The notes beneath the pieces were generated by a model. The model saw only the letters and a list, made by a program, of their open reading frames with translations, had not been told where the DNA came from and did not search any database. 64,000 nt of DNA from Ruegeria halocynthiae. Lineage in GTDB: Bacteria > Pseudomonadota > Alphaproteobacteria > Rhodobacterales > Rhodobacteraceae. Below, one piece after another: positions 19,834-58,584 of the stretch. Position numbers and translations under genes: made by a program. Position 1 is the first letter of the stretch; each line of letters opens with the position of its first letter. The DNA lies in contig NZ_FNNP01000005.1 in assembly GCF_900106805.1 (NCBI RefSeq), positions 124,001 to 188,000 of the forward strand, in the 5' to 3' direction.

Positions 19834-19853
19834 TTTGCCCTCCTCACAGCCAC

Positions 19854-21273: not shown

Positions 21274-23147
21274 GCCTCACGTGCTTTCACATCGCGTCTG
21301 AGCTTTGCCAACACCAAGGTCAGCGCGGCAGGAGTTACACCTTCAACCCGACCCGCCTGCGCAATATTGGCAGGCTTGGCCAGCGATAGCTTTTGCTTCA
21401 TCTCCGCCGACAGACCATCAAGTGCAAAATAGTTGAAATCGCGGGGAATTTCATGCGCTTCATCACGTTTCATCGCTTCAACATCACGCTGCTGCCGGGC
21501 AATGTAGTTGGCATACAACGCATCACGCTCAACCTGACGGCGGATTTCACTATCGACGCCCGCAAGACTGGGCTCGAGTGGGATCAAATCTTCAAATGTC
21601 ACATTGGGAAACGCCATAATTGCCATTCCGTCGCGCCGGTTTCCATCCTGATTGACGCTGATTCCGGACGCCCGAATTTCCTTCGGAGTATAGGTTCGCG
21701 CCGTTAGCTTGCTTTTTGCGGCTTCCAGCTTTTCGATTTTTCTACCAAATACCGCACAGCGACTTTCACTAACACAGCCAAGATTTTTACCCAAAGGTGT
21801 CAGTCTCTGATCGGCATTGTCTGCGCGCAATGACAATCTGAACTCTGCTCTGGAGGTAAACATTCTATATGGCTCAGAGACCCCGCGAGTTGTAAGATCA
21901 TCTATCATAACGCCAATGTAGCTGTCCGAACGCGTGAAGTGTATTGGTTCGCAAGCTTGAACCTCAAGCGCGGCATTCAATCCCGCAACAAGGCCTTGCG
22001 CGGCCGCCTCTTCATATCCAGTGGTCCCATTGATTTGGCCCGCAAGATAGAGCCCGGGAACATCAGGCACAGATAAAGATGCTGTCAGGACACGTGGATC
22101 AACATAATCATATTCGATGGCATAGCCAGGCTGCATAATCTTGGCGTTCTCCAACCCTAAGATCGATCGGACATATTCAACCTGAACGTCTTCTGGCAGA
22201 GATGTTGAGATCCCGTTTGGGTAAACCGTGTGATCCTGTATGCCCTCGGGCTCCAGGAAGATCTGATGGGAGTCCTTATCAGCGAATCGCACGATCTTAT
22301 CTTCGATCGAAGGGCAATACCTGGGACCGACACCATCGATATGCCCACCGTACATGGCTGATCGTGTTAGGTTTTTCTCAATGATCTCATGCGTCTGTGA
22401 ATTAGTATGTGTAATGCCGCAGGAGATTTGTGGGGCTATTACTGAAGTGGACATGAACGAAAAAAGGGTGGGCTCAACGTCGCCATCCTGTCGTTCCAGA
22501 ATATCCCATTTGATAGTCCGCCCATCCAGACGTGGTGGCGTACCAGTTTTCAACCGCGCCATAGGCATTGCAAACTCATCAAGGCGCCCGGCCAATTTGA
22601 TGGATGGGCGATCCCCCATCCGACCTCCGGGCCTGGAGATGTCTCCGATATGAATTACACCTCGTAGAAACGTACCGGATGTTAAGATTACCGTTCTAGC
22701 CGGGATTTCGGATTCATCCGACAACCTGATCCCAGCCACGCGACCCCCGTCCATCAGAAAATCAACTACTTCTCCGGTGATCACCGACAGATTATCTTGT
22801 TTCTGAGTCATCTCCGCCATCGCAGCCCGATACAAGGCACGGTCGGCTTGCGCTCTAGGGCCTTGGACAGCAGGGCCTTTACGTCGGTTTAACAAGCGGA
22901 ACTGGATACCTGCGCGATCCGCCACCCGCCCCATTACGCCATCAAGCGCGTCGATCTCTCGGACCAGGTGCCCTTTACCCAGACCGCCTATGGCGGGATT
23001 GCAAGACAGAACTCCGATATCGCGTTCGGATAGTGTGACCAATGCTGTGTTCGCGCCCATACGTGCTGCGGCATGTGCAGCTTCGGTACCTGCGTGTCCG
23101 GCACCAATGACAACAACATCAAACTTCGAATGTTTCACGTGAAACAC
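21270..23147 (-). CDS. mnmG: tRNA uridine-5-carboxymethylaminomethyl modification enzyme MnmG
   Basis: FAD-dependent partner of MnmE in wobble-uridine modification. The 625-residue protein has the dinucleotide motif [51 protein letters not shown] and [17 protein letters not shown]. It starts with a GTG at 23147 (MFHVKHSKF), three bases after the mnmE stop. The first codons after the start are themselves a parS site. The operon order is mnmE-mnmG-rsmG-parA-parB. Confidence 0.96.
23131..23146. other. parS centromere site 2 (first codons of mnmG)
   Basis: A second exact TGTTTCACGTGAAACA palindrome, 1.9 kb from the first. It occupies the second to sixth codons of mnmG and is read as FHVKH, a different reading frame from site 1. 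ParB bound here would sit on the mnmG translation start region. Confidence 0.95.
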
Positions 23148-23150
23148 TCC

Positions 23151-24437
23151 CTACTTTCCCAGGCAGAAACTTGCGAAAATTTCATCCAGAAGGGTTTCGA
23201 CATCAATCCTACCAACCAGAGACTCAAGTGATCGAATTGCCGAACGCAATTCCTCTGCCGCTATATCATACATATCTGGCCCCGATTCCAGAACCGCTTG
23301 TGCAGAAGCAAGGGATTCGACGGCCTTTGTCATTGCAATCCGATGGCGTTCTCGCGTTGCAATACCATGGCTGGTAGCTCTGCTACTTAACACACACGAT
23401 ATGTCGTCTATCAGTCTATCAATACCTTGCCCGGTCTTTCCAGATATTCCGCCGTCAGCGGCAGCCCGCAAATCTGATTTCGGAAGGACATGAATGTCGT
23501 CTATCTGCCTGGACACACCCAACAAGCCGGGACTATCCGTCAGAAAAACCCTCAGATCCGCGGCATCCGCACGTTTGCGAGCCAGTTCAATCCCAAGATT
23601 CTCGACATGGTCCTCCGTTTCCCGCAAGCCTGCCGTATCCAACAAGGTTACCGGCAATCCGGCCAGATCCATTCGAACTTCAATCACATCGCGGGTGGTG
23701 CCGGCATATTCCGATGTAATCGCGGCCTCTCGCCCCGCCAGAGCGTTCAGTAATGTCGACTTTCCCGCATTTGGAAGGCCAACAATAGCCACCTCAAAGC
23801 CAGATCGAATCCGCTCTGCAATCCGAACACCAATTGCTTCGCGGGTCAGCTCGTCCATAACACCAGAGGTCAGCATTCGGACCTCGGGCGTTACATCTGT
23901 TGGAACTTCTTCATCTGCAAAGTCAATCACGGCTTCCAGCAAAGATGCCGCACGGATCAGATCCCGGCGCCAACCTTCAGCTAACGTACCCAGCGCACCT
24001 GCCAAAATAATCTGAGCCTGTTTCCGCTGCGCTTCTGTTTCCGCGTCGATCAAATCGGCAAGACCTTCGACCTGCGCCAGATCCATTTTGCCGTTTTCTA
24101 AAGCACGACGTGTGAATTCGCCCGGTTCCGCCAGACGAAGATCATCCATGTCCGATAGACATCCCAACACAGCGTTAACCGACGCCAGACTGCCATGAAT
24201 CTGCAACTCGGCCACATCTTCGCCAGTAAAGCTAGACGGGGCCTGAAAGGTCAGAACCAAGCCCTCATCCAGCCGTGATCCGTCAGGTGCGCTGAGTGTT
24301 CGCACACACATCCCGCGAGGTGGTAAACCACCTCCGGCCAGGGCATTGGCAGCGCAATGCGCTTGCGGACCGGACAGTCGGATGACCGCAACGCCTGCTT
24401 TACCCTGGGCGCTGGCCAGGGCGAATATCGTATCCAT
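23151..24437 (-). CDS. mnmE: tRNA modification GTPase MnmE (TrmE)
   Basis: GTPase half of the MnmE-MnmG complex. The 428-residue protein opens with the formyl-tetrahydrofolate-binding domain ([22 protein letters not shown], split at the glycine). It continues with the G domain (P-loop [14 protein letters not shown], then TTRDVIEV and DTAGLRET) and ends with the diagnostic C-terminal CLGK. It is followed by mnmG after three bases and preceded by rho, 31 bases away on the same strand. Confidence 0.95.
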
Positions 24438-24468
24438 GAATAGCCCCCGCGTCAGTGCCGGACCTGTG

Positions 24469-25740
24469 TCAGGTGTTCATTGAATCGAAGAATTCACCGT
24501 TCGTCTTGGTCTGTTTCAGCTTCGACAACAGGAACTCGATCGCATCGGTTGTTCCCATCGGATTGAGAATGCGGCGCAGAACGAAGGTTTTTGCCAGATC
24601 ACCCTTGTCGACAAGCAGATCCTCTTTCCGGGTACCGGATTTGAGGATGTCGATGGCCGGGAACACGCGCTTATCTGCGATCTTACGATCCAGCACGATT
24701 TCCGAGTTACCCGTGCCTTTGAATTCTTCAAAGATAACTTCGTCCATCCGGCTGCCGGTATCGATCAGTGCGGTGGCGATGATGGTCAGCGAACCACCCT
24801 CTTCAATGTTCCGGGCCGCACCAAAGAACCGCTTGGGGCGTTGCAACGCGTTAGCATCCACACCACCGGTCAGAACTTTACCCGAGGATGGCACCACTGT
24901 GTTAAACGCCCTACCAAGTCTTGTGATCGAATCGAGAAGAATAACAACATCTCGTTTATGTTCGACCAATCGCTTGGCTTTTTCGATGACCATTTCCGAT
25001 ACGGCCACGTGGCGCGTAGCGGGTTCGTCGAAGGTCGAAGACACAACCTCACCCTTCACCGAGCGCTGCATGTCTGTCACCTCTTCCGGGCGTTCGTCGA
25101 TCAGCAGGACGATCAGATAACACTCGGGATGGTTCTGTTCGATCGAATGCGCGATATTCTGCAGGATCACTGTTTTACCAGTCCGCGGCGGCGCAACGAT
25201 CAGAGAACGCTGGCCTTTACCAATCGGCGATACCAGATCGATTACGCGGGCAGACTTGTCCTTGATGGTGGGATCTTCGATCTCCATCTTCAAACGCTCA
25301 TCGGGGTACAGCGGTGTCAGGTTATCGAAGGCAACCTTGTGCTTGGCTTTCTCAGGCGCTTCAAAGTTGATCTTGGTGACCTTGGTCAGCGCGAAGTATC
25401 GCTCGTTCTCATCGGGGGCTTTGATATCGCCTTCAACCGTATCCCCGGTGCGCAGCGAGTGCTGGCGGATCATATCCGGCGAGACATAGATATCGTCCGG
25501 ACCGGGCAGATAATTCGCCTCGGGTGAGCGCAAAAAGCCGAAGCCATCCTGCAAAACCTCAAGCACACCGTCGCCGCCAACAACCCAGCCCTCATCCGCG
25601 CGTTCACGCAGAATCTGGAACATCATCTCGCCTTTACGCATGGTCGAGGCGTTTTCGATCTCCAGTTCTTCTGCCATCGCCAGAAGGTCTTTGGGGCTTT
25701 TGGCTTTCAGATCGGCCAGATTCAGAGTTTCAGTTGTCAT
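24469..25740 (-). CDS. rho: Transcription termination factor Rho
   Basis: Hexameric RNA-dependent ATPase that terminates transcription. The 423-residue protein has the Rho N-terminal helix domain ([20 protein letters not shown]), the cold-shock RNA-binding domain ([20 protein letters not shown]), Walker [29 protein letters not shown], the Q-loop region [20 protein letters not shown], and [20 protein letters not shown]. It is complete, with no insertion in the N-terminal domain. It faces away from oriC. Confidence 0.97.
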
Positions 25741-46025: not shown

Positions 46026-47558
46026 CTAAGGGCGGCGCGGCCCGTCTGGTGTGATCATCCAGTTTGAAAGGGTTTTGTCCATTTTCCGCATCCGGTGACG
46101 CAGCATGTCGCGCGTCATACGTGCCAAAGTGGCCGCATGTTCAGGATGTTCGGCCACATTCTCCAGCTCTCCCTGCCCTTCGCCGTCGAATAATAACGGT
46201 GGCAGATCAGCGGCGAATTCGATCAGGGTGAAGCGGTCATCGCGCAGGATGCACAGGCAACTGTCCTCCAGACCTGTTTCAAGATCACGCTGCCAGCGCG
46301 TTGGGTTCAGCGGATCGGCGAAGTCCAGTTCCGAGAACGAATAGCGGCGCCAGTCGGTCGGCGGCATTGGAGTGGTGTCCTGAATGAACGGCATCAGCGA
46401 ACGCCCGTTCATTGAATCTGGTATGACCTGACCAACCCAGTCGAGAATTGTCGGCACGATATCGATGGATTCCGTCGGCGCATTTACGCGCCTGCCCTGC
46501 CCTCCGCCGGGCATGTGGATGATCAGAGGGGTATGATATGCGGCATCATAAACCGACATTTTTCCCCAACTATGCCGATCCCCCAACATCTCGCCGTGAT
46601 CGGCGGTCAGTACCAGCAATGTGTTGTCATACTGCCCGGTCTCTTTCAGGAAAGACACAACGCGGCCAATATGGTGATCCACCTCGGTCGCCAGCCCCAG
46701 ATAGAGCGCGCGCAGCGTCTGCACCACTTCATCTGTCGGTTCGAGATCAGGGAAACCTTCGACGAACCCGGCAACGGTGCTGTTGGCGCGGGTGGGTGCG
46801 AAGAACGGATGCAGCGCTTCTTCGGCCTCGTGTGACGGCAGTCGCAATGGCATCGGCAGCGCAGCGGGGTCATACATCCGATTGTAGGGCGCCGGGGCAA
46901 CCAACGGCGGATGTGGTCGCAGATAGGTGAGGTGTGCAAACCATCCCCGGTCATCCTGGGCATAGGCCGGCATGGTTTCCAGAAACCGGTCTGTCAGAAA
47001 GGCGGTGTCGCTATCCTCGGCCGCGTACATCGCGGGATCATTCAGTGCGGGTTGGCCGCCATCCGGCGCCACTGGTTTGAATACATCGAAATAGTTGTCA
47101 AACTCATATCCGCGGTTTTTCAGATGCGACCGCCATGGAAACGACATCTCCATCCGCATTTCCAGCATTTCCTGAAATCCGGCCATGTGGAATTCATAAG
47201 ACCTGAGGGCTGGGTCATTCGCATCAAAAACACGCGGGTCTTGCGATGTATCGGTATATCCAAACAGCATCGGCAGATATCCGGCTTTGCGCATCTCGCT
47301 GGCGATGGTCGGTGTGTCGTAGCGTAAGGGTGTGCCGTTCCGTACGGAACGGTGGTTCATCGCGTATTGTCCGGTCAGTAACGAGGCACGCGATGGGCCG
47401 CACGGGTTGGTCACAGAAAAGTGCCGCGCGAAGGACACGCTGTCTGCCATTAATGCGCGCATATGAGGCAAATCAACATGGCCTTCCAGCGCTCCGAACA
47501 GGCAATCCGCCCGCATTTGATCGGTTATGATAAACAGAACGTTGCGTTTGGGTGTCAT
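46026..47558 (-). CDS. Cytoplasmic formylglycine hydrolase, phosphonate monoester hydrolase/sulfatase family
   Basis: A 510-residue alkaline-phosphatase-superfamily protein. Metal ligand D13 (ITDQMRAD), formylglycine signature C53GPSR57ASLLTGQ, N74, Y101 and the later TADHGEMLGDRHSWGK are visible. The layout, including MNHRSVRN and CLCILRDDRFTLIEF near the end, resembles from memory the phosphonate monoester hydrolases, which cleave phosphonate monoesters, phosphodiesters and sulfate esters. There is no signal peptide from the ATG at 47558, so it acts in the cytoplasm on an imported substrate. A longer frame to 47693 exists. It needs a formylglycine-generating or anaerobic maturase encoded elsewhere. 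Confidence 0.85.
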   Translation of the reverse strand: MTPKRNVLFIITDQMRADCLFGALEGHVDLPHMRALMADSVSFARHFSVTNPCGPSRASLLTGQYAMNHRSVRNGTPLRYDTPTIASEMRKAGYLPMLFGYTDTSQDPRVFDANDPALRSYEFHMAGFQEMLEMRMEMSFPWRSHLKNRGYEFDNYFDVFKPVAPDGGQPALNDPAMYAAEDSDTAFLTDRFLETMPAYAQDDRGWFAHLTYLRPHPPLVAPAPYNRMYDPAALPMPLRLPSHEAEEALHPFFAPTRANSTVAGFVEGFPDLEPTDEVVQTLRALYLGLATEVDHHIGRVVSFLKETGQYDNTLLVLTADHGEMLGDRHSWGKMSVYDAAYHTPLIIHMPGGGQGRRVNAPTESIDIVPTILDWVGQVIPDSMNGRSLMPFIQDTTPMPPTDWRRYSFSELDFADPLNPTRWQRDLETGLEDSCLCILRDDRFTLIEFAADLPPLLFDGEGQGELENVAEHPEHAATLARMTRDMLRHRMRKMDKTLSNWMITPDGPRRP

Positions 47559-47931
47559 ATCCCGGTGCTCCTGATCGCCGGATCGAATCTGGGTATCCGA
47601 AAGATTGTTCCTACCCGGATTGCGCTGCGGCACTGCCCGCTTTGCCCCAGTATTGTGGCAATTACCGCTCAAAATCCACAAAAATCGGCGCAATTCAACT
47701 AAAAACGGAACATTGTTGTTGAGTAAGTTGGTTTTTGTGGGTTAGTGTTGGTGTGCTGTACGGAGATCTGCGAAATTGATGCCTCAGATGTGCTGCGAAA
47801 TGCGGCATCTCGCATTGACGATACAATCAAAAATGCCGGACGCAATGACGATCCGTTACACAACCCGTCGGTCCGTATCATGATGGCATCTCGGACCACT
47901 GCCCCGGTATCGCGATGAGGGATGAAACCAA
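47559..47931. promoter_or_regulatory. Divergent control region between the PMH-like hydrolase and the IMPase operon
   Basis: A 373-base gap without a credible gene. It contains a 27-base element (47661-47687) that recurs in front of the DeoR gene, and a partial third copy with TTTTTGTGGG at 47731-47740. The A+T-rich stretch 47665-47740 is the likely promoter and operator zone. The remaining 190 bases before the IMPase start show no motif I recognise. Confidence 0.55.
47661..47687 (-). promoter_or_regulatory. Candidate DeoR operator, copy A
   Basis: Read on the minus strand this contains TTGTGGATTTTGAGCGGTAA. A close match, TTGTGGATTTTTGCGCGGAA, occurs in front of the DeoR gene; the two differ by one inserted base and a few substitutions. 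It lies about 100 bases upstream of the hydrolase ATG. Confidence 0.5.
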
Positions 47932-48735
47932 ATGCTGAATCCGCCCAACGCTGTTGTGCTCCCCGCCACCACTGCAGATATCGCGACCCACGCAACGGAA
48001 ATCGCCCGTATCGCTGCAGATGCGGCGCGGGGGTATTTTCGTGGGCGGCTGGGGGTCGAGTTCAAGGCAGATGAAAGCCCGGTTACTCAGGCCGATAAGG
48101 GTGTAGAAGCTGTAGTGCGACAGTATCTGGCAGATCATTTCCCTGACGATGGCATTTTTGGCGAAGAACAAGGGTTCGAAGGATCGGACCGGCAGAATGT
48201 CTGGATCGTCGACCCCATAGATGGGACCCGCTCGTTCCTGTCGGGGCATCCACTGTTTGGCTTTCTGCTGGGATATCTCACCGATGGGGTGCCTCGGTTG
48301 GGTGTCATCGGTATGCCCGCGCTGGACGAGGTTCTGCTTGGTATGAAGGATCAGGGCGCATCGCTGAATGGCAAGCCCGTATCTGTCAGTGCAACGCGCC
48401 GGCTGAGCGATGCTGTTCTGTTCGTCAACGAAGGCGATAAGATTTACCGGGATCATCCGGCCCTATTCGACCGGCTGATGAAATCAGGCCAAACCCGCCG
48501 GTTTGCGTATGACTGTTACCCGCACGCGCTGCTTGCGATGGGCCATGTGGACGCGGTGATCGATTATGACTTGCAACCCTACGATTATCTGCCGGTGACT
48601 GCGGTCGTAGAAGCCGCAGGCGGGATCATGAGTGATTGGGACGGCAAGCCGCTGAATCTGAATTCGGATGGCCGAGTTATATCTGCCGCTACACCTCAAC
48701 TACACGCAGAGCTTCTTGAATTGGTGAACGGATAA
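47932..48735 (+). CDS. Inositol-monophosphatase-family phosphatase (HisN/IMPase/CysQ superfamily)
   Basis: A 267-residue Mg-dependent phosphomonoesterase. It shows KADESPVTQADKG, GIFGEEQG, the signature WIVDPIDGTRSFLSG, and YDLQPYDYLPVTAVVEAAGG with IMSDWDG. The second half looks closer to histidinol-phosphatase/IMPase than to CysQ. It removes phosphate from a small phosphomonoester. The neighbours (a phosphodiester-type hydrolase and a Na/Pi transporter four bases downstream) suggest it finishes dephosphorylation of an imported compound, but a housekeeping role cannot be excluded. Confidence 0.83.
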   Translation: MLNPPNAVVLPATTADIATHATEIARIAADAARGYFRGRLGVEFKADESPVTQADKGVEAVVRQYLADHFPDDGIFGEEQGFEGSDRQNVWIVDPIDGTRSFLSGHPLFGFLLGYLTDGVPRLGVIGMPALDEVLLGMKDQGASLNGKPVSVSATRRLSDAVLFVNEGDKIYRDHPALFDRLMKSGQTRRFAYDCYPHALLAMGHVDAVIDYDLQPYDYLPVTAVVEAAGGIMSDWDGKPLNLNSDGRVISAATPQLHAELLELVNG

Positions 48736-48739
48736 CGGA

Positions 48740-50440
48740 ATGGCAATTGTCAGTTTCCTCATAAGTCTGGCCGGCGCAACGATGCTGCTGCTTTATGCCG
48801 TACGTATGGTGCGCACCGGGATCGAGCGCAGCTATGGCGCGTCATTTCAGCGGGTGATGACGGGGCAGCGCAGTTATGCGCAGGCCTCGATGGTTGGCCT
48901 TGCGATGGCGATTGTGCTGCAAAGCTCGGCCGCGGTTGCATTGCTGACCTCCGGATTTGCGTCCGGTGGAATGCTGACCTTTTCAACCGGGCTTGCGATC
49001 GTTCTGGGCGGAGATCTGGGCTCGGCGCTGATCATTCAGGTGCTGTCGTTCAGACTGGACTGGCTGGTGCCGATGCTGCTTGCCGTCGGTGGCTACCTTT
49101 TCGTCAAAACCGAGGCCAAGAAATCGCGACAGCTGGGCCGTATTCTGATGGGTATCGCGTTCATCCTGATTTCGCTGCGCTTTCTGCGCGAGGCGATGGA
49201 CCCGATCCGGGACAGCGCCTTTCTGCCCGCCATCGCCGAATATCTGGCACGCGACTACATCACCGCATTTCTGGTCGGCGGGGCACTGGCTTTCGTCATG
49301 CATTCTTCGGTTGCGGCAATCTTGATGTGCGTGACGCTGGTGCAGATCGGGGCGATCCCCTTTACCGCCGGCTTGTCGCTGGTGCTGGGCGCGAATTTCG
49401 GGTCCGCCTTTATCCCGGTCTGGTTGACCCGTGGCATGACACTTTCGGCCCGCCGCATCCCGTTCGCCAATCTGGCCCTGCGTGGCAGCTGGTCGATTGT
49501 GTCGCTGTTTGCCGCAAATCTCGCTTTGCGGGCCGGGGTGCTCGGAGATTTGCAAGGTGGCCAGATGCTGGTGAATGCGCATTTGGTGTTCAACACCTCG
49601 CTTCTGCTTTTGGCGTTACCCTTCTGCGGCATGTTGCGCGCTCCGTTCGAGAACTTGTTTCCTGACCCGAAAGGCAACGATAGCAATGCTCAGCCCGGGC
49701 AACCGATCAGTGCACTGGACTTCGATACGATCGGCAGGCCCAACCAGGCTCTTTCCAGCCTCAAGCGTGAGTTGTTGAGGATGAGCGACATGGTTGCTTC
49801 GATGTTCCGCCCCGCGCTGGAACTTTATCGCAGCGGGGACAAAGAACAGATCCGGGCAATCCGAGAGATGGATGCGGATGTAAACAACTGCCTGTCCGGT
49901 ATCCGGAAATATGTCGCGGCGATTCCGGCAGATGCATTCGGCAAGGACAATGCCAAGGTCGCGCGGGATCTGATGGAATACGCCATCCGGCTGGAAACCG
50001 CAGGCGACGTGGTGGCCAAACGCCTGACCGTGCTGGCGGATGATATGCGCAAAAAAGGGGCCTCGTTCTCGAAAGAAGGCTGGTTGGAACTGGTTGAGAT
50101 GCACGAGGGCATTCTGGCCAATCTGAAACTAGCCTCGAACGTGCTGATTTCGGATGATCTGGAAAGCGCCCGGCTTCTGAGCCTGGAAAAGACCGAAATT
50201 AAGCGGGCCGAGCGCGACAGTCGCAAGCGTCACCTGAAACGCCTGCAGCATGGCAGCGCGGAAAGCTTTGAGACCAGCGATATCCATCTCGAGACGCTGC
50301 GCGCCTTTCGCGAATTCAACAGCCATATCGCGGCAGTCGCCTATCCGATCCTGTATCGCAATGGACAATTGCTTGAAACGCGACTGATCGAGGAACTGCC
50401 GCAGATGGAACGGGATGCTGAAGCGGAGCTTAAACGGTGA
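48740..50440 (+). CDS. Na+/phosphate cotransporter-family protein with PhoU-like C-terminus
   Basis: A 566-residue protein. The first 315 residues hold about eight to ten membrane helices with the paired repeats of the NptA/YjbB family: VLQSSAAVALLTSG with VLGGDLGSALI, and MHSSVAAILMCVT with VLGANFGSAFI. Residues about 335-560 are helical and PhoU-like. The E. coli relative YjbB exports phosphate. It lies between the IMPase-family phosphatase and a small ORF that overlaps its stop, so phosphate released by the phosphatase may leave by this route (inference). Confidence 0.88.
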   Translation: MAIVSFLISLAGATMLLLYAVRMVRTGIERSYGASFQRVMTGQRSYAQASMVGLAMAIVLQSSAAVALLTSGFASGGMLTFSTGLAIVLGGDLGSALIIQVLSFRLDWLVPMLLAVGGYLFVKTEAKKSRQLGRILMGIAFILISLRFLREAMDPIRDSAFLPAIAEYLARDYITAFLVGGALAFVMHSSVAAILMCVTLVQIGAIPFTAGLSLVLGANFGSAFIPVWLTRGMTLSARRIPFANLALRGSWSIVSLFAANLALRAGVLGDLQGGQMLVNAHLVFNTSLLLLALPFCGMLRAPFENLFPDPKGNDSNAQPGQPISALDFDTIGRPNQALSSLKRELLRMSDMVASMFRPALELYRSGDKEQIRAIREMDADVNNCLSGIRKYVAAIPADAFGKDNAKVARDLMEYAIRLETAGDVVAKRLTVLADDMRKKGASFSKEGWLELVEMHEGILANLKLASNVLISDDLESARLLSLEKTEIKRAERDSRKRHLKRLQHGSAESFETSDIHLETLRAFREFNSHIAAVAYPILYRNGQLLETRLIEELPQMERDAEAELKR

Positions 50441-50577
50441 TCGGTCTAGTCGATATTGTGAAGGAGCGGGCAGGCCCCGAACCCGACAAAGGTGCGATCA
50501 TCGATCCGCCCTGCGAAGATAGCCCGATCACATTCACAGAAGAAATCCTGACTGAGCAGTTTTCAAAGGCAATCTGA
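50437..50577 (+). CDS. Small ORF (46 residues), unknown
   Basis: A GTG-start frame that overlaps the Na/Pi transporter stop as GTGA and ends two bases before the GTG start of the EamA gene. The product starts MIGLVDIVKERAG and ends EEILTEQFSKAI. It is acidic (about nine Asp/Glu), soluble and contains one cysteine. I recognise no family. Tight packing on both sides argues for translation coupled to its neighbours; the short length argues for caution. Without it the operon would have a 139-base gap. Confidence 0.5.
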   Translation: MIGLVDIVKERAGPEPDKGAIIDPPCEDSPITFTEEILTEQFSKAI

Positions 50578-50579
50578 CC

Positions 50580-51419
50580 GTGAGCATCGGCATCGTTCTC
50601 ATAATTCTTGCCGCGGCACTGCTACATGCGATCTGGAACACCGTCGTCAAAGCCGCAACGGACCGGACCGTTACGCTGGGACTGGTGGCACTGGGTCATG
50701 TGATCCCAGGGGCGCTGATGGTGGTGGTGCTTCCGCTGCCCGAAGTCGAAAGCCTGCCATATCTGGCTGGCTCCACAGTCGTTCACTTCGGATATTTCTA
50801 TATGCTGAATCAGGCCTATCGGCACGGTGATCTCAGTGTGGTTTATCCGATTGCGCGCGGAGTTGTCCCAGCACTGGTCGCGCTTTGGGCGGTGATCTTT
50901 GCGGGTGAGCATTTGCCGACACAGGCCTGGTTCGGGATCGCGGTGATTGCCATAGGAATCCAGATGTCCAGCTGGTCGGTTCTGAGACAGGGGGTCGGTC
51001 GGGCGTCGCTGGTTTTCGCGCTGGGGACCGGATTTTGCATCTCTATCTACTCGCTTGTGGATGGTCTGGGCGTACGGGTGTCGGGCAACATCCTGAGCTA
51101 CTGGGCGTGGCATTCAGTGCTGCATATCTTTCTCGTCGGTTTCGTGGCCCTGCGCCGAGGCACCCAATTGTTGGCGCTGCCGTTGCGAACATGGGTTGTT
51201 GGGATTGCAGGCGGCATGGTGTCGATGACGGCATACGGCCTTGTGCTTTATGCCAAGAATTTTGCCCCGCTTGGGGTTGTGTCGGCTCTGCGCGAGACTT
51301 CGGTGATCTTTGCGGCCATGATCGGGTTTTTGTTCTTGGGCGAAGGCAACCCCCTGCGCCGGTTGCTTGCCGCAGTAATGATGGCGGTGGGCGTGACGAT
51401 GATCGCACTGTCGTCGTGA
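50580..51419 (+). CDS. EamA/DMT-family transporter
   Basis: A 279-residue protein with ten hydrophobic segments forming two EamA repeats. The first is seen in LLHAIWNTVVKAATDR and YRHGDLSVVYPIARGVVPAL, the second in LRETSVIFAAMIGFLFLGEG. These proteins usually export small metabolites. The YPIARG type resembles the permeases reported near phosphonate-catabolism operons, from memory. It is last in the IMPase-Na/Pi-small-ORF-EamA operon and is separated by 178 bases from the DeoR gene. Confidence 0.85.
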   Translation: MSIGIVLIILAAALLHAIWNTVVKAATDRTVTLGLVALGHVIPGALMVVVLPLPEVESLPYLAGSTVVHFGYFYMLNQAYRHGDLSVVYPIARGVVPALVALWAVIFAGEHLPTQAWFGIAVIAIGIQMSSWSVLRQGVGRASLVFALGTGFCISIYSLVDGLGVRVSGNILSYWAWHSVLHIFLVGFVALRRGTQLLALPLRTWVVGIAGGMVSMTAYGLVLYAKNFAPLGVVSALRETSVIFAAMIGFLFLGEGNPLRRLLAAVMMAVGVTMIALSS

Positions 51420-51556
51420 ATCTGTGTTGCTCTGCGTTGGTTGATTCTTGGGAAGGTCCATAAACCTGCCCGCCGGATCACAGCAATAAGCCGGTTGATA
51501 AGGCTAAATTGACCGAAAAAAGCAAAAAAACAAAAATTGTCGCAAAAGATTTACAT

Positions 51557-51581
51557 TTATTGTGGATTTTTGCGCGGAAAT
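51557..51581 (+). promoter_or_regulatory. Candidate DeoR operator, copy B (upstream of the DeoR gene)
   Basis: Contains TTGTGGATTTTTGCGCGGAA, which closely matches the element upstream of the PMH-like hydrolase. It ends 16 bases before the DeoR start, a usual position for autoregulation. The preceding bases (51512-51550) are A-rich with a CAAAAATTG motif and complete the 178-base gap after the EamA gene, in which I see no gene. Confidence 0.5.
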
Positions 51582-51597: not shown

Positions 51598-52512
51598 ATG
51601 GATGATGACAGCATAACCATCCCACATCGCGGCAGAGAGTTGCTGGATGTACTTGCACGGCTGGGTGGTTCCGCACGCAACACTCAGATTGCTCAGATCA
51701 TGGATGTCTCTGAGGAAACGGTTCGCCGACTGGTCAAGGCATTGGCGCGGGCGAACAAGGTCGAGCGTGTGCATGGCGGCACCTATCTGTCGCGCGCGCA
51801 GGATACGCCGATGTTCTCGGGCGCGCTGGAACACAATGCTGATGAAAAAACCGATATTGCCAAGCGTGTCTGCGGGCTGCTTGAAGATGAGATGGTGCTG
51901 TTTATCACCGTTGGGTCGACCATGACTCACGTGGCCGAGCAATTGCGCGAACTGCGTGGTTTGACGGTCGTCAGCAACTCATTGTCTGTTGTCGCGTCCT
52001 TGGCCGATCATAATGGCACCAGGGCGATTTTGGCGGGGGGCGAAGTGATCCGGTCCGAGCGGGGCAGCTTTGGTCGAGCAGCCGAAGAGCTGGCGTGCCA
52101 ATACAGCTATGATGCGGTGATCTGCGGCGCTGATGCGCTGTCTCTGGTTGGTGGTGTATTGGCGTCCAATCCGCTTGAGGCTGATTTGATCCGCGCGTTG
52201 CGGCGAAACACGTATCGCATGATCGTAGCAGCGGATCACACGAAATTCGGCGCGAAAGCTGCTAACGTGTCCTGTCCGTTCGATAAGGTGACCGATCTGG
52301 TGACAGATGGCGCCCTGCCAGATGCATTTGTTCCGGTTCTCAAAGAGGCCGGGGTCAAAGCGCATATCGTCTCGCAATGCGAAACCGCAGGCAGCAAGAT
52401 GGCCGCTGAGACCGGACGTGAAAGAGCAGCGCCGCGGAAACGAAAGAAGAACCGGGAAACAACAGATAGCAAAGCCGGAAAATCGGGTTCTCGGAAACGC
52501 AAAACGCAATAA
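51598..52512 (+). CDS. DeoR/GlpR-family transcriptional regulator with basic C-terminal tail
   Basis: A 304-residue regulator. The N-terminal winged helix (about 8-65) reads GRELLDVLARLGG and AQIMDVSEETVRRLVKAL with ERVHGGTYL. The DeoR sensor domain has FITVGSTMTHVAEQL and VVSNSLSVVASL, the sugar-phosphate isomerase-like fold that senses phosphorylated intermediates. The last 37 residues are extremely rich in Lys/Arg (RKRKKNR, SRKRKTQ), which is unusual for the family. The binding-protein gene follows after 18 bases, so it heads the importer operon. Confidence 0.88.
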   Translation: MDDDSITIPHRGRELLDVLARLGGSARNTQIAQIMDVSEETVRRLVKALARANKVERVHGGTYLSRAQDTPMFSGALEHNADEKTDIAKRVCGLLEDEMVLFITVGSTMTHVAEQLRELRGLTVVSNSLSVVASLADHNGTRAILAGGEVIRSERGSFGRAAEELACQYSYDAVICGADALSLVGGVLASNPLEADLIRALRRNTYRMIVAADHTKFGAKAANVSCPFDKVTDLVTDGALPDAFVPVLKEAGVKAHIVSQCETAGSKMAAETGRERAAPRKRKKNRETTDSKAGKSGSRKRKTQ

Positions 52513-52530: not shown

Positions 52531-54570
52531 ATGAAACAGCTACTTATGTCAGGTGTGGCCCTTGCCACACTCGGAGGGGCCGCATGGGCCAATTGCCCTG
52601 CTGCGACCGTGGCCGATATGCAAGGCGTGTCGGCCGGTGCCTATCCGCAGCAGTTTGATCTGTCCGAATTCCAGTCGGCTGCAAACTGTACGCTCAGCAT
52701 TGCCGAAAACCCTGCCATTGGTGATCTGAACGGGATGATCCGTGGCAACGGCGACTTACCCGCAGTGGCGGATCGTCTGCCTTCTGAACCTCTGGTCATC
52801 GTCCCGTATGGTTCGATCGGTCAGTATGGCGGTGTTCTGGACGCGCTGTCCAACGCCACGGAAAGCGGGACATCAGATTTCCTGTCCGTACGCCACGTGA
52901 ATCTGTTCCGGTATTCTGACGACCTTCAGACCCTGGTGCCCAATGTGGCCAAATCCTGGGAGTGGAATGATGACTTCACCGAGCTGACCGTGAACCTGCG
53001 TGAAGGTCACAAATGGTCGGACGGCGCGCCCTTCACCTCGGCTGATGTTGTGTTCTGGTACGACAACCTGATGATGGACACCAACGTCATTGCCGAGGCG
53101 AAAGATTATGCGCTTGCAGGCGGCGAACCCATCAAGGTCGAAGCCGTGGACGACACAACCGTCCGCTTCACCCTTGCCGCGCCCAAGCCGGGCCTGACAG
53201 AGACGTTCTCGTTCACCTATGTGCAGCCCTATCAGCCCAAGCATTTCTTTGAAAAGTTCCACCCGGCACTGGATGAGAATGCCGACGCCAACGCGCAGGC
53301 GCTTGGCTATGAAAACGGGTACGAGCTGATCAAGGCATACTACGGCAACTCAGACTGGATGGACACGCCGTCGCCAATGCTGACCGCGGGTGACAAGCTG
53401 GCGGGTCTTCCGACCGACACCATGCCGACCTTGGAAAGCCATATCCTTGTGAAGGAAAGCACCGAGGGCCGTCACTATGTGGCCAACCCCTATTTCTTCC
53501 AGGTCGATACGCAGGGTAACCAGCTACCCTACATCTCGGAGATGGATGAAACCTATGTTCCGGATGAAGAAGTCCGCACGCTCAAGCTGCTAAACGGCGA
53601 GGTCGATTATAAGTCACAGGGTGTAAACCTGACCTCCGCTCCAGTGCTGCTGGAGGGTCAGGAAAACGGCAATTACACGCTCGAAGTGAAGCCTTCGATT
53701 GGGTATCCGGTTCTGACGTTCAACGTGACCGCTGAAGACGAAGCAAAACGGGCAATCTTTAATGACATCCGGTTCAGAACCGCGATGTCTGTAGCAATGG
53801 ACCGTGACCAATTGAATGAGGTTGTCGCCTTTGGGCTCGGAACGCCGACGCAATACATTGGCTTCTCACCGCGTCCTGATTTCATCGAGGAAAAATGGGC
53901 GAACCATGAGATTGCGTTTGACGCAGACCGTGCCAATGCATTGCTGGACGAGATCGGCCTGGTCGACAAGGACGGCGATGGCTTCCGCGATCTGCCGAGC
54001 GGCGATCCGTTTGTACTGGACTGGCAATTCTCAACCCAACCCGCGTCGGCGCAGCTGATCGAACTGATCGCCCAGAACTGGAAAGACGTAGGCGTCAACA
54101 CGGCAATCAAAGAGGTCACCTCGGACGAGTTCCGTGCTGCGCAAACGGCAAACTCGCTTGATATGGGTTTGTGGCTGAAAAGCCAGCCTGCGGGGTCGAT
54201 CCTTGGCGATGGCGAAATCTGGGTGCCCCCATTCGATGGATATTTCGACGTGCGTACAGGTATGCTGTGGGCTGAATACATCAGCTCGAACGGCGAAAAC
54301 GGCGTTGAACCTCCGGCTTGGGTTGCTGATCTGAAGGCTGCTTTGGATACATACCAGTCCAGCGCACCGGGCTCTGATGCCTCTGTTTCCGCGGCACAGA
54401 AGATGGTCGAGATCATGACCGGAGAGCTGCTGTTTCTGGGCACGGTCAACGCCCCAGCGCCGATCTATCACTCGAACAACCTGCAGAACTTTACCGAGTT
54501 CAAAACGCAGTCTTACGAGTTCTATCGGACCTATCCCTACCGCCCTGCTCAGTGGTGGCTGAGCGAGTAA
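52531..54570 (+). CDS. ABC transporter substrate-binding protein, family 5 (Opp/Dpp type)
   Basis: A 679-residue periplasmic binding protein with a signal peptide (about 1-20, ending GAAWA). It has SBP family 5 motifs: LVPNVAKSWEWNDDFTELTV, then NLREGHKWSDGAPFTSADVV, and RFRTAMSVAMDRDQLNEVVA. An acidic DKDGDGFRD loop near residue 480 resembles a calcium site. It is about 150 residues longer than dipeptide-binding proteins, as in relatives that bind oligosaccharides or other large ligands. The ligand is unknown; the regulator and hydrolases nearby suggest an esterified compound rather than a peptide. Confidence 0.88.
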   Translation: MKQLLMSGVALATLGGAAWANCPAATVADMQGVSAGAYPQQFDLSEFQSAANCTLSIAENPAIGDLNGMIRGNGDLPAVADRLPSEPLVIVPYGSIGQYGGVLDALSNATESGTSDFLSVRHVNLFRYSDDLQTLVPNVAKSWEWNDDFTELTVNLREGHKWSDGAPFTSADVVFWYDNLMMDTNVIAEAKDYALAGGEPIKVEAVDDTTVRFTLAAPKPGLTETFSFTYVQPYQPKHFFEKFHPALDENADANAQALGYENGYELIKAYYGNSDWMDTPSPMLTAGDKLAGLPTDTMPTLESHILVKESTEGRHYVANPYFFQVDTQGNQLPYISEMDETYVPDEEVRTLKLLNGEVDYKSQGVNLTSAPVLLEGQENGNYTLEVKPSIGYPVLTFNVTAEDEAKRAIFNDIRFRTAMSVAMDRDQLNEVVAFGLGTPTQYIGFSPRPDFIEEKWANHEIAFDADRANALLDEIGLVDKDGDGFRDLPSGDPFVLDWQFSTQPASAQLIELIAQNWKDVGVNTAIKEVTSDEFRAAQTANSLDMGLWLKSQPAGSILGDGEIWVPPFDGYFDVRTGMLWAEYISSNGENGVEPPAWVADLKAALDTYQSSAPGSDASVSAAQKMVEIMTGELLFLGTVNAPAPIYHSNNLQNFTEFKTQSYEFYRTYPYRPAQWWLSE

Positions 54571-54585
54571 GGTTCAGAAGACAAG

Positions 54586-54609
54586 AAGGTGGGCGCCCGC
54601 GCCCGCCTT
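54586..54609 (+). other. Intercistronic hairpin after the family 5 binding-protein gene
   Basis: A 10-bp G+C-rich stem with one G-T pair and a 4-base loop, 15 bases after the binding-protein stop, without a T-run. It is probably an mRNA-stabilising structure that raises binding-protein output relative to the permeases. The other importer in this window has an analogous hairpin at the same place. Confidence 0.6.
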
Positions 54610-54631
54610 CGCGCATCCCGCGGGGACAGAT

Positions 54632-55636
54632 ATGTTTCAATTCTGCAGATTTACCGCCACCCGGGCGGTTATGGCGTTGGTCACTCTGGTCATCGTTTCG
54701 CTGATCGTTTTTTCGTTGATGGAGCTGGTGCCCGGTGACTGCGCCGAGCGCTATTTGGCGTATAAGAACACCCAAGGTTCTGCGATCACTGTTGCAGATG
54801 TTGCAGCAGAACGCGCCCGGCTGGGGCTGGATCAACCATTCCTGACCAGATGGGCCACGTGGTTGTCCGGGGCGTTTCGCGGTGATTTCGGCGAAAGCTG
54901 TATTCTACGGGTCAACATCGCGCAGTTGTTGGGTGACAAGTTCTGGCTGTCGCTGTGGATCTGCCTGGGCGCATTGACTCTGGCTTATGCCATTGCGATC
55001 CCTGTCGGTATTATTTCAGCCGCCTCACGCAATGCGGCGCTGAACAACTCGCTGCGGATCGTCAGCTATCTGGGTCTGGCGATGCCGAACTTCCTGCTGG
55101 CCCTGATGGTGATGCTGGTTTCGACCGTCTATTTCGGCGAAACGCTGACGGGCTTGTTTTCACCCGAATATAAAGAAGCGCCCTGGTCATGGGGCAAATT
55201 CGTGGACTTGCTGAAACATGCCTGGCTGCCGATCTTTATTCTGGGATGGTCAGCCACCGCCTTTGCTTTGCAGACCGTCCGCGCGCTGATGTCGGATGAG
55301 ATCGGCAAGCTTTACGTCACGGCTGCTGCTGCGCGGGGCATCTATGGCCGCCGCCTGCTGTGGCGCTATCCGGCCCGTCACGCACTGGGGCCGATCGTCA
55401 ACAGCCTTGGCTTTGACCTGAACCGGATTTTCAACGAACTGCCCATCGTGGCGCTGATCTTGACTTTGACTGAAGCCGGGGCGCTGTTGCTTGAAGCGTT
55501 GGCGCGATCCAATGACCAGCAACTTGCCGGGGCCATCATATTTCTGCTGACGGCATCGATCGTGACGTTGAATTTCTTCACCGACATTCTGCTTGCGGCC
55601 ATCGATCCGCGCGTCCGCAATAGTATCCTCAGGTGA
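54632..55636 (+). CDS. ABC transporter permease, DppB-like
   Basis: A 334-residue permease with six hydrophobic segments. The N-terminal helix is RAVMALVTLVIVSLIVFSLM, and ARLGLDQPFLTRWATWLSGA and RGDFGES are typical of DppB proteins. The EAA-type loop lies near TAAAARGIYGRRLLWRYPAR. It lies 61 bases after the binding-protein gene and is followed by the second permease after four bases. Confidence 0.9.
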   Translation: MFQFCRFTATRAVMALVTLVIVSLIVFSLMELVPGDCAERYLAYKNTQGSAITVADVAAERARLGLDQPFLTRWATWLSGAFRGDFGESCILRVNIAQLLGDKFWLSLWICLGALTLAYAIAIPVGIISAASRNAALNNSLRIVSYLGLAMPNFLLALMVMLVSTVYFGETLTGLFSPEYKEAPWSWGKFVDLLKHAWLPIFILGWSATAFALQTVRALMSDEIGKLYVTAAAARGIYGRRLLWRYPARHALGPIVNSLGFDLNRIFNELPIVALILTLTEAGALLLEALARSNDQQLAGAIIFLLTASIVTLNFFTDILLAAIDPRVRNSILR

Positions 55637-55640
55637 CCAG

Positions 55641-56771
55641 ATGACCGCGAGCTCCACCAACCAACAGGCAAAAGAAGCCTATTTCACCGCCTCACAGCGA
55701 CAGCTGATCTGGGCAAGATTCAAGAGACAGCGTGCAGCCATGGTTGCTGCATCGGTTCTGGTCGTGTTGATCCTGTCGGGTATTTTCGCACCATTCCTAT
55801 CCCCCTACGATCCAACGGCCGCAGGGCGTGACAAAGATTATCTGAACGGCGCACCTCAAATCCCGAAATTCTGCGACAAGAATGGCTGCTCGGTCCGACC
55901 GTTCCTGCATGGTGTGACCCGCGAACGCTCGCTGGCGACGAATTTCCGCTGGGTTGAGACGGTTAACGAGGACGAACGCAGATATATCCAGTTCTTTGTG
56001 AGGGGCGACAAATACAAGCTGTTCGGCTTCATACCCGGTGACATCCACCTGTTTGGTGCCGATGAGGGGTATGTTCATCTGTTCGGAACCGACAGTGCAG
56101 GCAAGGATATCTTCAGTCGAACGCTGCACGCGGTTTGGACGTCGTTGCAGGTCGGAACACTCGGGGTCATGATCTCGTTCGTGCTGGCGCTCGCGATTGG
56201 CGGAGTTGCCGGATATTATGGCGGTATGGTGGATAGCGTGATCCAGATGATCACCGATGCGATCCGAACGGTTCCTGCCATCCCCCTATTTATGGCGATT
56301 GCGGCCTTCATCCCGCCGGAATGGTCGGCTGAAACCAGGTTCTTTGTCATCACCGCCATTTTGGGACTGGTCGGCTGGCCCACGCTGGCACGACGTGTGC
56401 GCACCCATCTGCTGACGGAACGCAATCAGGAATATGTGCTTGCGGCAAAGCTATGTGGTGCATCGCCGGGGCACATCATCCGGCGTCATCTGCTGCCCAG
56501 TTTCACCAGCTATATCATCGTCGATCTGGTGATCTCATTTCCCTACATGGTGCTCAGCGAGACCGCGCTCAGCTTTATTGGATTGGGGCTAAAAGATCCG
56601 GTCAACTCGTTGGGTGTGATGCTGCAGAATGTGACCAAGGCGGATGTTCTGCTGAACTACCAATGGTATTTCATCCCGGTCATCTTTTTCGTCGTGCTTG
56701 TGATGTCTTTTGTGTTCGTCGGCGATGGTCTGCGTGATGCGGCTGACCCCTATTCGGAGACCCGCAAATGA
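55641..56771 (+). CDS. ABC transporter permease, DppC-like, with large periplasmic insert
   Basis: A 376-residue permease. The start is taken at the ATG at 55641; the frame runs on to 55593 inside the preceding gene. Between helix 1 (about 32-55) and the family motif HLFGTDSAGKDIFSRTLHAV there is an insert of about 90 residues with two cysteines (CDKNGC) and RYIQFFVRGDKYKLFGFIPG. Standard DppC proteins lack most of this. The EAA loop reads AAKLCGASPGHIIRRHLLPS. It overlaps the first ATPase gene by four bases. Confidence 0.9.
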   Translation: MTASSTNQQAKEAYFTASQRQLIWARFKRQRAAMVAASVLVVLILSGIFAPFLSPYDPTAAGRDKDYLNGAPQIPKFCDKNGCSVRPFLHGVTRERSLATNFRWVETVNEDERRYIQFFVRGDKYKLFGFIPGDIHLFGADEGYVHLFGTDSAGKDIFSRTLHAVWTSLQVGTLGVMISFVLALAIGGVAGYYGGMVDSVIQMITDAIRTVPAIPLFMAIAAFIPPEWSAETRFFVITAILGLVGWPTLARRVRTHLLTERNQEYVLAAKLCGASPGHIIRRHLLPSFTSYIIVDLVISFPYMVLSETALSFIGLGLKDPVNSLGVMLQNVTKADVLLNYQWYFIPVIFFVVLVMSFVFVGDGLRDAADPYSETRK

Positions 56772-57766
56772 GCTTGATTGACGTCAAGAACCTGTCCGTC
56801 CAGTTCAAAACCGATGAAGGGTTGATCACAGCGGTTGAGGACGTCTCGTTCTCATTGGCACCGGGTGAGGTTCTGGGGCTGGTCGGCGAAAGCGGATCAG
56901 GGAAATCGGTGACCGCAAAGTCGATGATGAAGCTAAACCCTCCAAACGCGATCTATGCTCCGGAATGCCGGATCGATCTGCATTTGGACAGCGGACCGGT
57001 TGATGTGATGGCTCTGAAGCGGCCCCGAGACATGGAGATTGTGCGCGGCGGGGCGATCAGCATGATCTTTCAGGAACCGATGGCCAGCTTTGCCCCGGCC
57101 ATTACCATCGGCAAGCAGATGGTCGAACAATTGCTGATCCATACGGATTTGAACAAGAAGCAGGCCAAAGACCTGTCCATCGAAATGCTGGATCGGGTAG
57201 GCATCCTTGAACCGGCAACCCGGTTCAACCAGTATGCGTTCGAACTGTCGGGCGGGATGCGTCAACGGGCGATGATCGCCATGGCGCTTTCGACCAAGCC
57301 TAAGCTGCTGATCGCGGACGAACCGACAACGGCGCTGGACGTGACCATTCAGGCGCAGGTTTTGGATTTGATGAAGGATCTGGTGGCCGAGTTCGGCATG
57401 GGTATCGTCTTTATCACCCATGACCTGAGCGTCGTCGCCCAGACCGCCGACCGTGTTGCAGTGATGTATCTGGGGCGGATCATGGAAAGCGGCCCGGTGC
57501 GCGAAGTGATCCGTCACCCGGCCCACGCCTATACGCGCGGGCTGCTGAACGCGCTGCCCAAACTCGATGATCTGGACGCACCGCTGACCCCGATCCCCGG
57601 CGACATCCCCTCGCCGTTAGAGCGGCCATCAGGTTGCGTGTTCCATCCGCGTAACCCGGAACTAAAACCCGGATCGCGGTATGAGACGGAGCGCCCGCCC
57701 CTGACCGAAGTCAGCCCCGGTCATTTCGCAGCCATTTTCCCAGAAGACGTACCCGGCCAGCCATGA
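56768..57766 (+). CDS. ABC transporter ATP-binding protein, DppD-like
   Basis: A 332-residue ATPase with Walker A GLVGESGSGKSVTAKSM, the signature ELSGGMRQRAMIAMAL, Walker B KLLIADEPTTALDVTIQAQV and switch histidine VFITHDLSVVAQTADRV. The C-terminal oligopeptide-transporter region with PLTPIPGDIPSPLERPSGCV and FHPRN is present, but only two of the usual iron-sulfur cysteines can be suspected. ATGA overlaps link it to the permease and to the second ATPase. Confidence 0.92.
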   Translation: MSLIDVKNLSVQFKTDEGLITAVEDVSFSLAPGEVLGLVGESGSGKSVTAKSMMKLNPPNAIYAPECRIDLHLDSGPVDVMALKRPRDMEIVRGGAISMIFQEPMASFAPAITIGKQMVEQLLIHTDLNKKQAKDLSIEMLDRVGILEPATRFNQYAFELSGGMRQRAMIAMALSTKPKLLIADEPTTALDVTIQAQVLDLMKDLVAEFGMGIVFITHDLSVVAQTADRVAVMYLGRIMESGPVREVIRHPAHAYTRGLLNALPKLDDLDAPLTPIPGDIPSPLERPSGCVFHPRNPELKPGSRYETERPPLTEVSPGHFAAIFPEDVPGQP

Positions 57767-58584
57767 CAAATGCATTGATCAAAACAGAAAACCTGTCGGT
57801 CGAATTTCCCCTTGGTGGTGGGTTGTTCAACAAACGCACGTTGAAGGCGGTCGACAATGTATCGATCGAAATCCCGCAGGGTGCTTTTGTCGGCGTGGTC
57901 GGCGAGTCCGGCTCGGGCAAGACAACACTTGGCCGCGCACTGCTGAATGCGGTTCCCATCACCAGCGGTAGCGCAAGCTATGACGATGGAGAAGAGCAGT
58001 TCGATCTGACCAAAATGTCAGCCACGGATCTCAAGGCTTATCGCCGCCGGGCTCAGCTGATTTTTCAGGACCCGTACGCTGCGCTGAGCCCCCGGATGAC
58101 CGTGCGCGACATCATCGCCGAACCGCTGGATGTGATGGGTCTGACCGCATCGCGCGAGGAAACCGATACGCGGGTGCGCGAGATTGCAGCCAAATGCCGT
58201 CTGAACCTGGAACATCTGCGCCGCTATCCGCACGCGTTTTCAGGCGGTCAGCGTCAGCGGATTTCAATCGCCCGGGCACTGGCCTGCAACCCGCGTTTCG
58301 TGGTTGCTGATGAATGTGTGGCGGCGTTGGATGTATCGATTCAGGCAGATATCCTGAACCTGCTGAAATCGCTCCAGCATGACATGGGCCTGACCTTCAT
58401 GTTCATCAGTCACGATCTGTCAGTTGTGGCTCATACCTGTGATTTTGTGGTTGTGATGTATCATGGTAAAATCGTCGAAAGCGCCCCAACGCGAGAGCTG
58501 TTTGCGGCGCCGAAGCAGGACTATACCAAGCGCTTGCTAGACGCGATCCCATCGCTTGACCCCGATCACCGAATACGCGCCTGA
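57763..58584 (+). CDS. ABC transporter ATP-binding protein, DppF-like
   Basis: A 273-residue ATPase with Walker A GVVGESGSGKTTLGRALL, Q-loop FQDPYAALSPRMTVRDII, signature AFSGGQRQRISIARAL and switch MFISHDLSVVAHTCDFVVV. The Walker B/D-loop segment reads VVADECVAALDVSIQADIL, with cysteine where most relatives have proline; the catalytic glutamate is kept. It lacks the C-terminal extension of DppD-type subunits. It ends the importer operon. Confidence 0.92.
   Translation: MTNALIKTENLSVEFPLGGGLFNKRTLKAVDNVSIEIPQGAFVGVVGESGSGKTTLGRALLNAVPITSGSASYDDGEEQFDLTKMSATDLKAYRRRAQLIFQDPYAALSPRMTVRDIIAEPLDVMGLTASREETDTRVREIAAKCRLNLEHLRRYPHAFSGGQRQRISIARALACNPRFVVADECVAALDVSIQADILNLLKSLQHDMGLTFMFISHDLSVVAHTCDFVVVMYHGKIVESAPTRELFAAPKQDYTKRLLDAIPSLDPDHRIRA

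Follow-up and report, generated by a model that had tools for sequence, protein, structure and literature searches.

The window analysed here, a stretch of 64,000 nucleotides from Ruegeria halocynthiae, holds a gene for a phosphonate monoester hydrolase (PMH)-like protein and a gene for a DeoR-family regulator, 4 kb apart and on opposite strands. An earlier reading of the letters had proposed that one DNA element precedes both genes, and that a common regulator would place the hydrolase, and perhaps an inositol-monophosphatase (IMPase) operon, in the DeoR regulon. The question raised by this locus is whether the element is real, and which protein would act on it.

Gene content of the locus

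The cluster at 46-58.6 kb of the window holds the following genes:

46026-47558, minus strand: PMH-like hydrolase (Sulfatase Pfam family, CGPSR motif; 4upk is the closest solved chain; start codon picked by eye)
47932-48735, plus strand: IMPase family protein (translation, Pfam and NCBIfam profiles)
48740-50440, plus strand: Na/Pi cotransporter with a PhoU domain (translation, profiles)
50580-51419, plus strand: EamA transporter (nearest NCBIfam model TIGR03340, phosphonate-associated, below its cut-off)
51598-52512, plus strand: DeoR-family regulator (HTH_DeoR and DeoRC, profiles)
52531-58584, plus strand: peptide-type ABC transporter (binding protein, two permeases, two ATPases)

The hydrolase is a full-length homologue of the phosphonate monoester hydrolases (PDB 4upk, 2vqr and 2w8s). 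It aligned with 4upk over residues 4-509 (E 1.4e-244), and its translation carries NPCGPSR, matching the CxPSR motif of these enzymes; we take CGPSR to be the nucleophile motif. It differs from them in falling under the cut-off of the NCBIfam PehA equivalog model (439.4 against 900 bits), and its PMH activity is putative. The regulator belongs to the DeoR family by PF08220 (28.4 bits, cut-off 21) and PF00455 (127.4 bits, cut-off 31.8). Its C-terminal tail of about 40 residues (window 52380-52512) is rich in lysine and arginine, a feature also seen in G043 and, by match length, in G030, and shorter or missing in the remaining orthologues aligned.

Within the ABC transporter, the binding protein and the first permease were labelled by profiles and the other three genes by eye. 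The five genes are presumed to share one transcript with deoR. They stand immediately 3' of deoR in 13 of the 15 deoR genomes compared and two genes further on in G089; near deoR of G322 the transporter was not matched. Elsewhere in the window (18940-25740), Pfam identified parB, parA, rsmG (gidB), mnmG (gidA), mnmE and rho genes, a set typical of replication-origin regions.

A shared element upstream of the hydrolase and deoR

Four stretches between these genes may be relevant to their control:

47661-47687, minus strand: operator-like element 5' of the PMH-like hydrolase, CGATTTTTGTGGATTTTGAGCGGTAAT (second-best site of its own genome)
47732-47741, plus strand: partial inverted copy TTTTTGTGGG, facing the IMPase operon (sequence; relatives' upstream regions)
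51539-51547, plus strand: GTCGCAAAA, an upstream stretch resembling an inverted half-site (putative assignment)
51556-51581, plus strand: operator-like element 5' of deoR, TTTATTGTGGATTTTTGCGCGGAAAT (16 nt before the ATG; top-scoring site of its own genome)

Both elements contain the 11-mer TTGTGGATTTT, at 47671-47681 (minus strand) and 51560-51570 (plus strand), and no other copy is present in the window. Their extended forms are TTGTGGATTTTGAGCGGTAAT at 47661-47681 (minus) and TTGTGGATTTTTGCGCGGAAAT at 51560-51581 (plus). As predicted, the element lies on the minus strand at the hydrolase and on the plus strand at deoR, in the same orientation relative to each gene and with one inserted base. 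Two copies of the 11-mer were reached in 0 of 100 dinucleotide shuffles of the window; with one mismatch allowed, the window gained no copy and 35 of 100 shuffles then reached two matches. The window has two occurrences of the arrangement TTGTGGATTTT-N0-4-GCGG, one before the hydrolase and one before deoR, and the GCGGNAAT form had a mean of 0.00 in 100 shuffles. Across the 4.24-Mb genome to which the window belongs (G000), the long form with GCGG was found three times against none for a reversed control, and the exact 11-mer six times against one. The relaxed pattern WTGTGGNTTTT gave 18 matches against 14 for its reversed control, four of the 18 falling outside open frames of at least 110 aa.

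The shared element is real and is not a product of chance. A T-rich context, together with the fact that hard looking can turn up one strong two-copy match per window, might suggest that two AT-rich promoters are alike by chance, or that a duplication has decayed. This account is highly improbable given that no shuffle reached two copies, that both places are kept in relatives despite diverged flanks, and that an out-of-sample matrix selects the deoR and hydrolase sites.

Conservation of the element upstream of deoR

Close deoR orthologues (E <= 1e-60) were found in nine of 54 genomes of the genus, including the window's own. A family search covering 394 genomes sampled out of a larger group returned six further deoR genes at 53-66% identity, in addition to the gene of the own genome and a paralogue at 45% identity in G042. 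The element is present 5' of deoR in all nine genus genomes; it is strong in three of the six genomes of other genera (57-66% identity) and weak in the other three. EM motif discovery was applied to the 15 deoR upstream regions, nine of which belong to one genus and so are not independent, and yielded TTTTTTGTGGATTTTT (width 16) with a log-likelihood of 151.8, compared with 54.5-64.4 in eight letter-shuffled sets. Site scores were 22.3-26.5 in 12 genomes and 15.0-15.7 in the most divergent three (G345, G322 and G089). The best site lies 42-44 bp before the deoR start in 13 of 15 genomes and 54 bp before it in G322, and the deoR upstream region of G345 has one weak, inverted site only. About 20 bp upstream of the element, GTC[GAT]CAAAA is found in the inverse sense in eight of nine sequences, with GTCACATTA in the ninth (L009).

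A strict matrix was built from 11 deoR sites of other genomes. It holds no hydrolase site, and the own genome, G322 and G089 were left out, the latter two because their deoR upstream region is also that of the hydrolase: the two genes are divergent there, with TGTGG repeats between them. On these two intergenic regions the matrix scored 10.1 and 9.9, inside the range of random pieces; G089 lacks TGTGGNTTT, which for G322 was reached in 104 of 4000 shuffles. As the strict-matrix scores are at background, the shared site of G322 and G089 rests on TGTGG repeats seen by eye and on an EM analysis that included them, and support beyond Ruegeria comes mainly from G084, G091 and G125, which are in the strict matrix.

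The nearly constant spacing from the deoR start that 13 of 15 genomes share, and a TATG-like stretch that follows the element in most Ruegeria sequences, would also suit a core-promoter part (e.g. a -35 or -10 region recognised by one particular sigma factor) common to co-expressed genes. With such a distance, core-promoter and operator roles are inseparable by sequence. A sigma-70-like consensus match was located at 51509-51537, just upstream of the deoR element, and a scan for the same consensus at the hydrolase found no match. We consider a core-promoter role unlikely: no sigma-70 consensus pair overlaps the element at either gene, the element stands about 100-125 bp from the hydrolase start, its partial copy is inverted, and it is too rare, with six exact 11-mers in the own genome and few relaxed matches outside long frames.

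Conservation of the element upstream of the hydrolase

Hydrolase relatives are common in the genus (47 of 54 genomes, E <= 1e-120). Five Ruegeria-type genomes (G000, G043, G030, G029 and G015) encode a hydrolase with 80-100% identity to that of the window, at a distance of 4-9 kb from deoR, and TGTGGATTTT is found about 110-120 bp 5' of this cluster-linked gene in all five. Alignability of the upstream DNA to the window had z values of 19.8 and 24.9 for two close genomes, compared with 3.6 for G029 and 5.6 for G015; the flanks have thus largely diverged in two of the five genomes that keep TGTGGATTTT. Among 20000 shuffles of each upstream region, 38 for G029 and 32 for G015 contained TGTGGATTTT.

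Upstream regions were scored for the best 30 of 49 hydrolase matches. With the strict matrix, all five cluster-linked regions scored 15.6-24.0 and the other 25 at most 13.4. A 13-site matrix that includes the deoR sites of G322 and G089 gave 16.9-23.4 for the cluster-linked regions, at most 12.3 for the others, and at most 15.1 in 2000 random 330-bp pieces of the window. The hydrolase upstream region of G345 had no site (1.7, strict matrix). In a phylogenetic tree made without the truncated hydrolase of G051 (99 aa), the five element-bearing hydrolases form one group (support 100/99). The deoR-adjacent hydrolases of G322 and G089 neighbour this group (92/92), and that of G345 has a very long branch in another part of the tree.

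Relatives that keep both genes and lack the element would speak against common control. On its face, this combination is seen in G009, G010, G016 and G051, which have deoR and an unlinked PMH without the element. Their hydrolases fall outside the well-supported group of five and so are probably not the same gene. G051 additionally has a partial hydrolase match adjoining an IMPase gene (L068 17774-19833; residues 9-206, 64% identity), the frame of which ends after 99 aa, suggesting hydrolase decay in this copy of the cluster.

Genome-wide ranking of candidate sites

The strict matrix was used to rank the 18 WTGTGGNTTTT places of the own genome. The deoR site came first (27.4) and the hydrolase site second (24.0), followed by a place inside a dehydrogenase E1 gene (17.9) and a site upstream of the ruv genes (16.7). 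Neither this ranking nor the result for the five linked hydrolases changed between the 13-site matrix and the 11-site repeat. A covariance-type search with 13 deoR sites likewise placed deoR and the hydrolase as the top two in G000, G043 and G029, with hydrolase E values of 0.16, 0.08 and 0.03, respectively. This deoR-only model ranked the hydrolase third in G015 and missed it in G030, finding it in four of five genomes; a model that included hydrolase sites, and is therefore circular, recovered it in five of five, the G015 site being the weakest of its four. The covariance-type searches were limited to 150 of the roughly 1400-1700 first-look candidates in each genome, so it is the pattern scans that provide the exhaustive ranking. 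The best sites of the own genome are, by this computation, confined to the DeoR/hydrolase cluster.

The phylogenetic footprinting suggested with the original prediction was largely passed, with the element at deoR in 9/9 genus genomes and at the linked hydrolase in 5/5. The hydrolase combines an upstream motif, conservation in relatives and out-of-sample detection, and its predicted place in the DeoR regulon under a common regulator gains support from the footprinting and the out-of-sample matrix, mainly within the genus; DeoR itself would be the protein that binds.

Several other matches were set aside. The third long-form copy of the own genome, on G000:C28, lies outside long frames and points away from its neighbour gene (L004 9175-10821), which has the look of a surface protein by eye and no Pfam match; it scores 14.7 and 12.7, and was discarded for its low score and because the region matched in G030 and G015 does not include it. 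A site found with model R1 in all five genomes (G000:C17:399143) is inside a dehydrogenase E1 gene. The intergenic TTTGTGGATTTT, 5' of a small ORF and ruvCAB, is kept in five genomes with a different flank; it scores 16.7 and was not counted as a DeoR target. A TTTGTGGATTTTYGCCACGTTTTTGTCGCATTCT-like sequence at G000:C26:107603 (L128 about 2980-3100; also L107, L115, L124 and L129) is strongly kept in five genomes, 5' of the small ORF that precedes ruvC, ruvA and ruvB. The ruv-upstream site may be unrelated to DeoR.

Conservation of the ruv-upstream site is one of two observations that would fit a different regulator controlling both genes, such as a global regulator or a second DeoR paralogue. 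The other is a second DeoR-family gene of R. conchae (DeoR2), about 40% identical to DeoR and located between the hydrolase and IMPase genes (L005 4475-5248; L067 4599-5369). This is the position of the main DeoR in G322 and G089, and since DeoR2 adjoins the hydrolase, the regulator partner in R. conchae could be either DeoR. We nevertheless find control by another regulator improbable. The two best sites of the own genome both lie in the DeoR cluster, which makes a global regulator unlikely, and 12 of 15 genomes have a strong copy of the element before their deoR orthologue. Two unlinked paralogues of DeoR (43-45% identity) are at background, with strict-matrix scores of 10.3 and 0.0 within 250 bp upstream, and the TGTGGATTTT about 300 bp 5' of the G051 paralogue falls inside a long open frame.

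Architecture of the site

An alignment of 19 sites, picked by the motif itself, showed TGTG and two T of the T-run to be invariant and TGTGGATTTT to be mostly kept. The GCGG core followed by AAT had been proposed as part of the element and is present at both window sites. Among the 19 sites this part varies (GAGGG, CAGGG, GTGAA, GCGAA and others), so it is better described as a weaker second half than as a fixed core.

Self-similarity of the 19 extended sites was highest at lag 10 among lags 5-15 (0.396, compared with 0.293, sd 0.017, after shuffling), and was also raised at lags 11 and 12 (0.359 at lag 12); as the sites are related to one another, this is moderate evidence. Alignment A1 and the periodicity test did not use the hydrolase sites of G345, G322 and G089, nor the deoR site of G345, which is a weak match (excluded from A2 as well) and has its best match on the other strand. 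The periodicity of the sites at the regulator and its predicted target agrees with the imperfect direct repeats of 10-11 bp period that make up the operator architecture of the DeoR family.

A similar architecture is known from RhaR, a DeoR-family regulator of Rhizobiales and others, the motifs of which are described in the part of PMC3870299 considered here as a pair of imperfect direct repeats with a period of 10-11 bp, each group having its own sequence. The regulons in that part of the source resemble the present one in that the regulator adjoins an ABC-transporter operon and controls a local regulon of one to several operons; the likeness also concerns the direct-repeat motif. The cargo differs from what is described there, being a PMH-like hydrolase, an IMPase, a Na/Pi transporter and a peptide-type ABC transporter.

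The partial copy facing the IMPase operon

The partial copy TTTTTGTGGG had been reported at 47731-47740; it is present, one base further on, about 60 bp from the hydrolase element and in the inverse sense. It is kept as TTTGTGGG in the three closest genomes, partially as ATTGTGGG in G015 (facing DeoR2) and in degraded form in G029, and was not found 5' of IMPase in G009 or G051. The suggestion that the IMPase operon also belongs to the DeoR regulon agrees with the good conservation in the closest genomes and less well with the partial, degraded and missing copies in the other four, and control of this operon by DeoR is only partly supported.

Proposed regulation

Computation has demonstrated the presence, rarity and periodicity of the element, its conservation at both places in Ruegeria-type genomes, and its conservation at deoR in some other genera. 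Accounting for these results, the shared element is probably the autoregulatory operator of the DeoR protein encoded at 51598-52512, shared with the hydrolase, with DeoR as the predicted binding protein. The constant part of this operator would be TTTTTGTGGATTTT with its 10-bp periodicity, accompanied at deoR by an upstream inverted CACAAAA-like copy.

We infer repression instead of activation, as well as the inducer and the substrate. Judging from its family, DeoR would bind its own promoter and repress both itself and the downstream peptide-type ABC transporter, and binding at the hydrolase promoter would repress the hydrolase. A phosphorylated breakdown product of the imported substrate may then bind the DeoRC domain and lift repression. 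Control could also reach the IMPase, Na/Pi and EamA genes, through the degenerate copy lying inverted between their operon and the hydrolase. A search of titles and abstract openings found no published description of the motif or the regulon, and we propose this as a new predicted regulon of a familiar kind.

Possible substrate and physiological role

The DeoR clusters of G043, G029, G015, G009 and G322 also contain genes for an N-formylglutamate amidohydrolase-like protein, a glutamine-synthetase-family protein (GS) and an iron alcohol dehydrogenase (ADH). An aldehyde dehydrogenase (ALDH) was matched in the same clusters, not including that of G029. No NCBIfam model names these proteins of the relatives' clusters above its cut-off. 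All four genes are missing from the clusters of the window and of G030, and a close GS is located elsewhere in the G030 genome. The own genome has an RpiR regulator, an N-formylglutamate amidohydrolase, a TRAP transporter, GS, ALDH and ADH together at C17:1193-1202 kb (L190 5477-14370). Its GS, ALDH and ADH are 81-88% identical to those of the R. conchae DeoR cluster, and some relatives have a second copy of C17-type enzymes inside the DeoR cluster.

An ethanolamine gamma-glutamylation operon with an RpiR regulator and a TRAP transporter is described for Phaeobacter sp. MED193 in the part of PMC10132767 considered here. Like-named enzyme types are found in the relatives' DeoR cluster. Compared with what that part of the source describes, DeoR takes the place of RpiR and a peptide-type ABC transporter that of TRAP, and the four enzyme genes are absent from the window's cluster.

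Gene content, namely the enzymes of the relatives taken with the phosphatase, the phosphate transporter and the PMH-like hydrolase, suggests that the substrate may be an ethanolamine ester. As a tentative proposal, which we hold to be possible rather than probable, the predicted DeoR regulon of marine Ruegeria and related genera might serve the use of an ethanolamine-bearing ester, e.g. glycerophosphoethanolamine or a similar phospho- or phosphonoester. The ester would be imported whole by the ABC transporter and cleaved inside the cell by the PMH-like enzyme, the IMPase would remove phosphate for disposal by the Na/Pi transporter, and the ethanolamine would be burned by gamma-glutamylation enzymes, encoded in the cluster in relatives and elsewhere in the own genome.

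What began as a guess from the letters is now a defined, predicted regulon whose operator can be tested. This regulon would join an importer and an ester hydrolase, possibly also a phosphatase and a transporter of phosphate, and would extend to ethanolamine catabolism in relatives; if the proposal is true, it would allow the substrate-inducible use of organophosphorus compounds as carbon and nitrogen source. The natural substrates of the PMH/PehA hydrolase family are, to our knowledge, uncertain. The inducer of DeoR should point to the substrate of the hydrolase, and would thus provide a physiological handle on this family.
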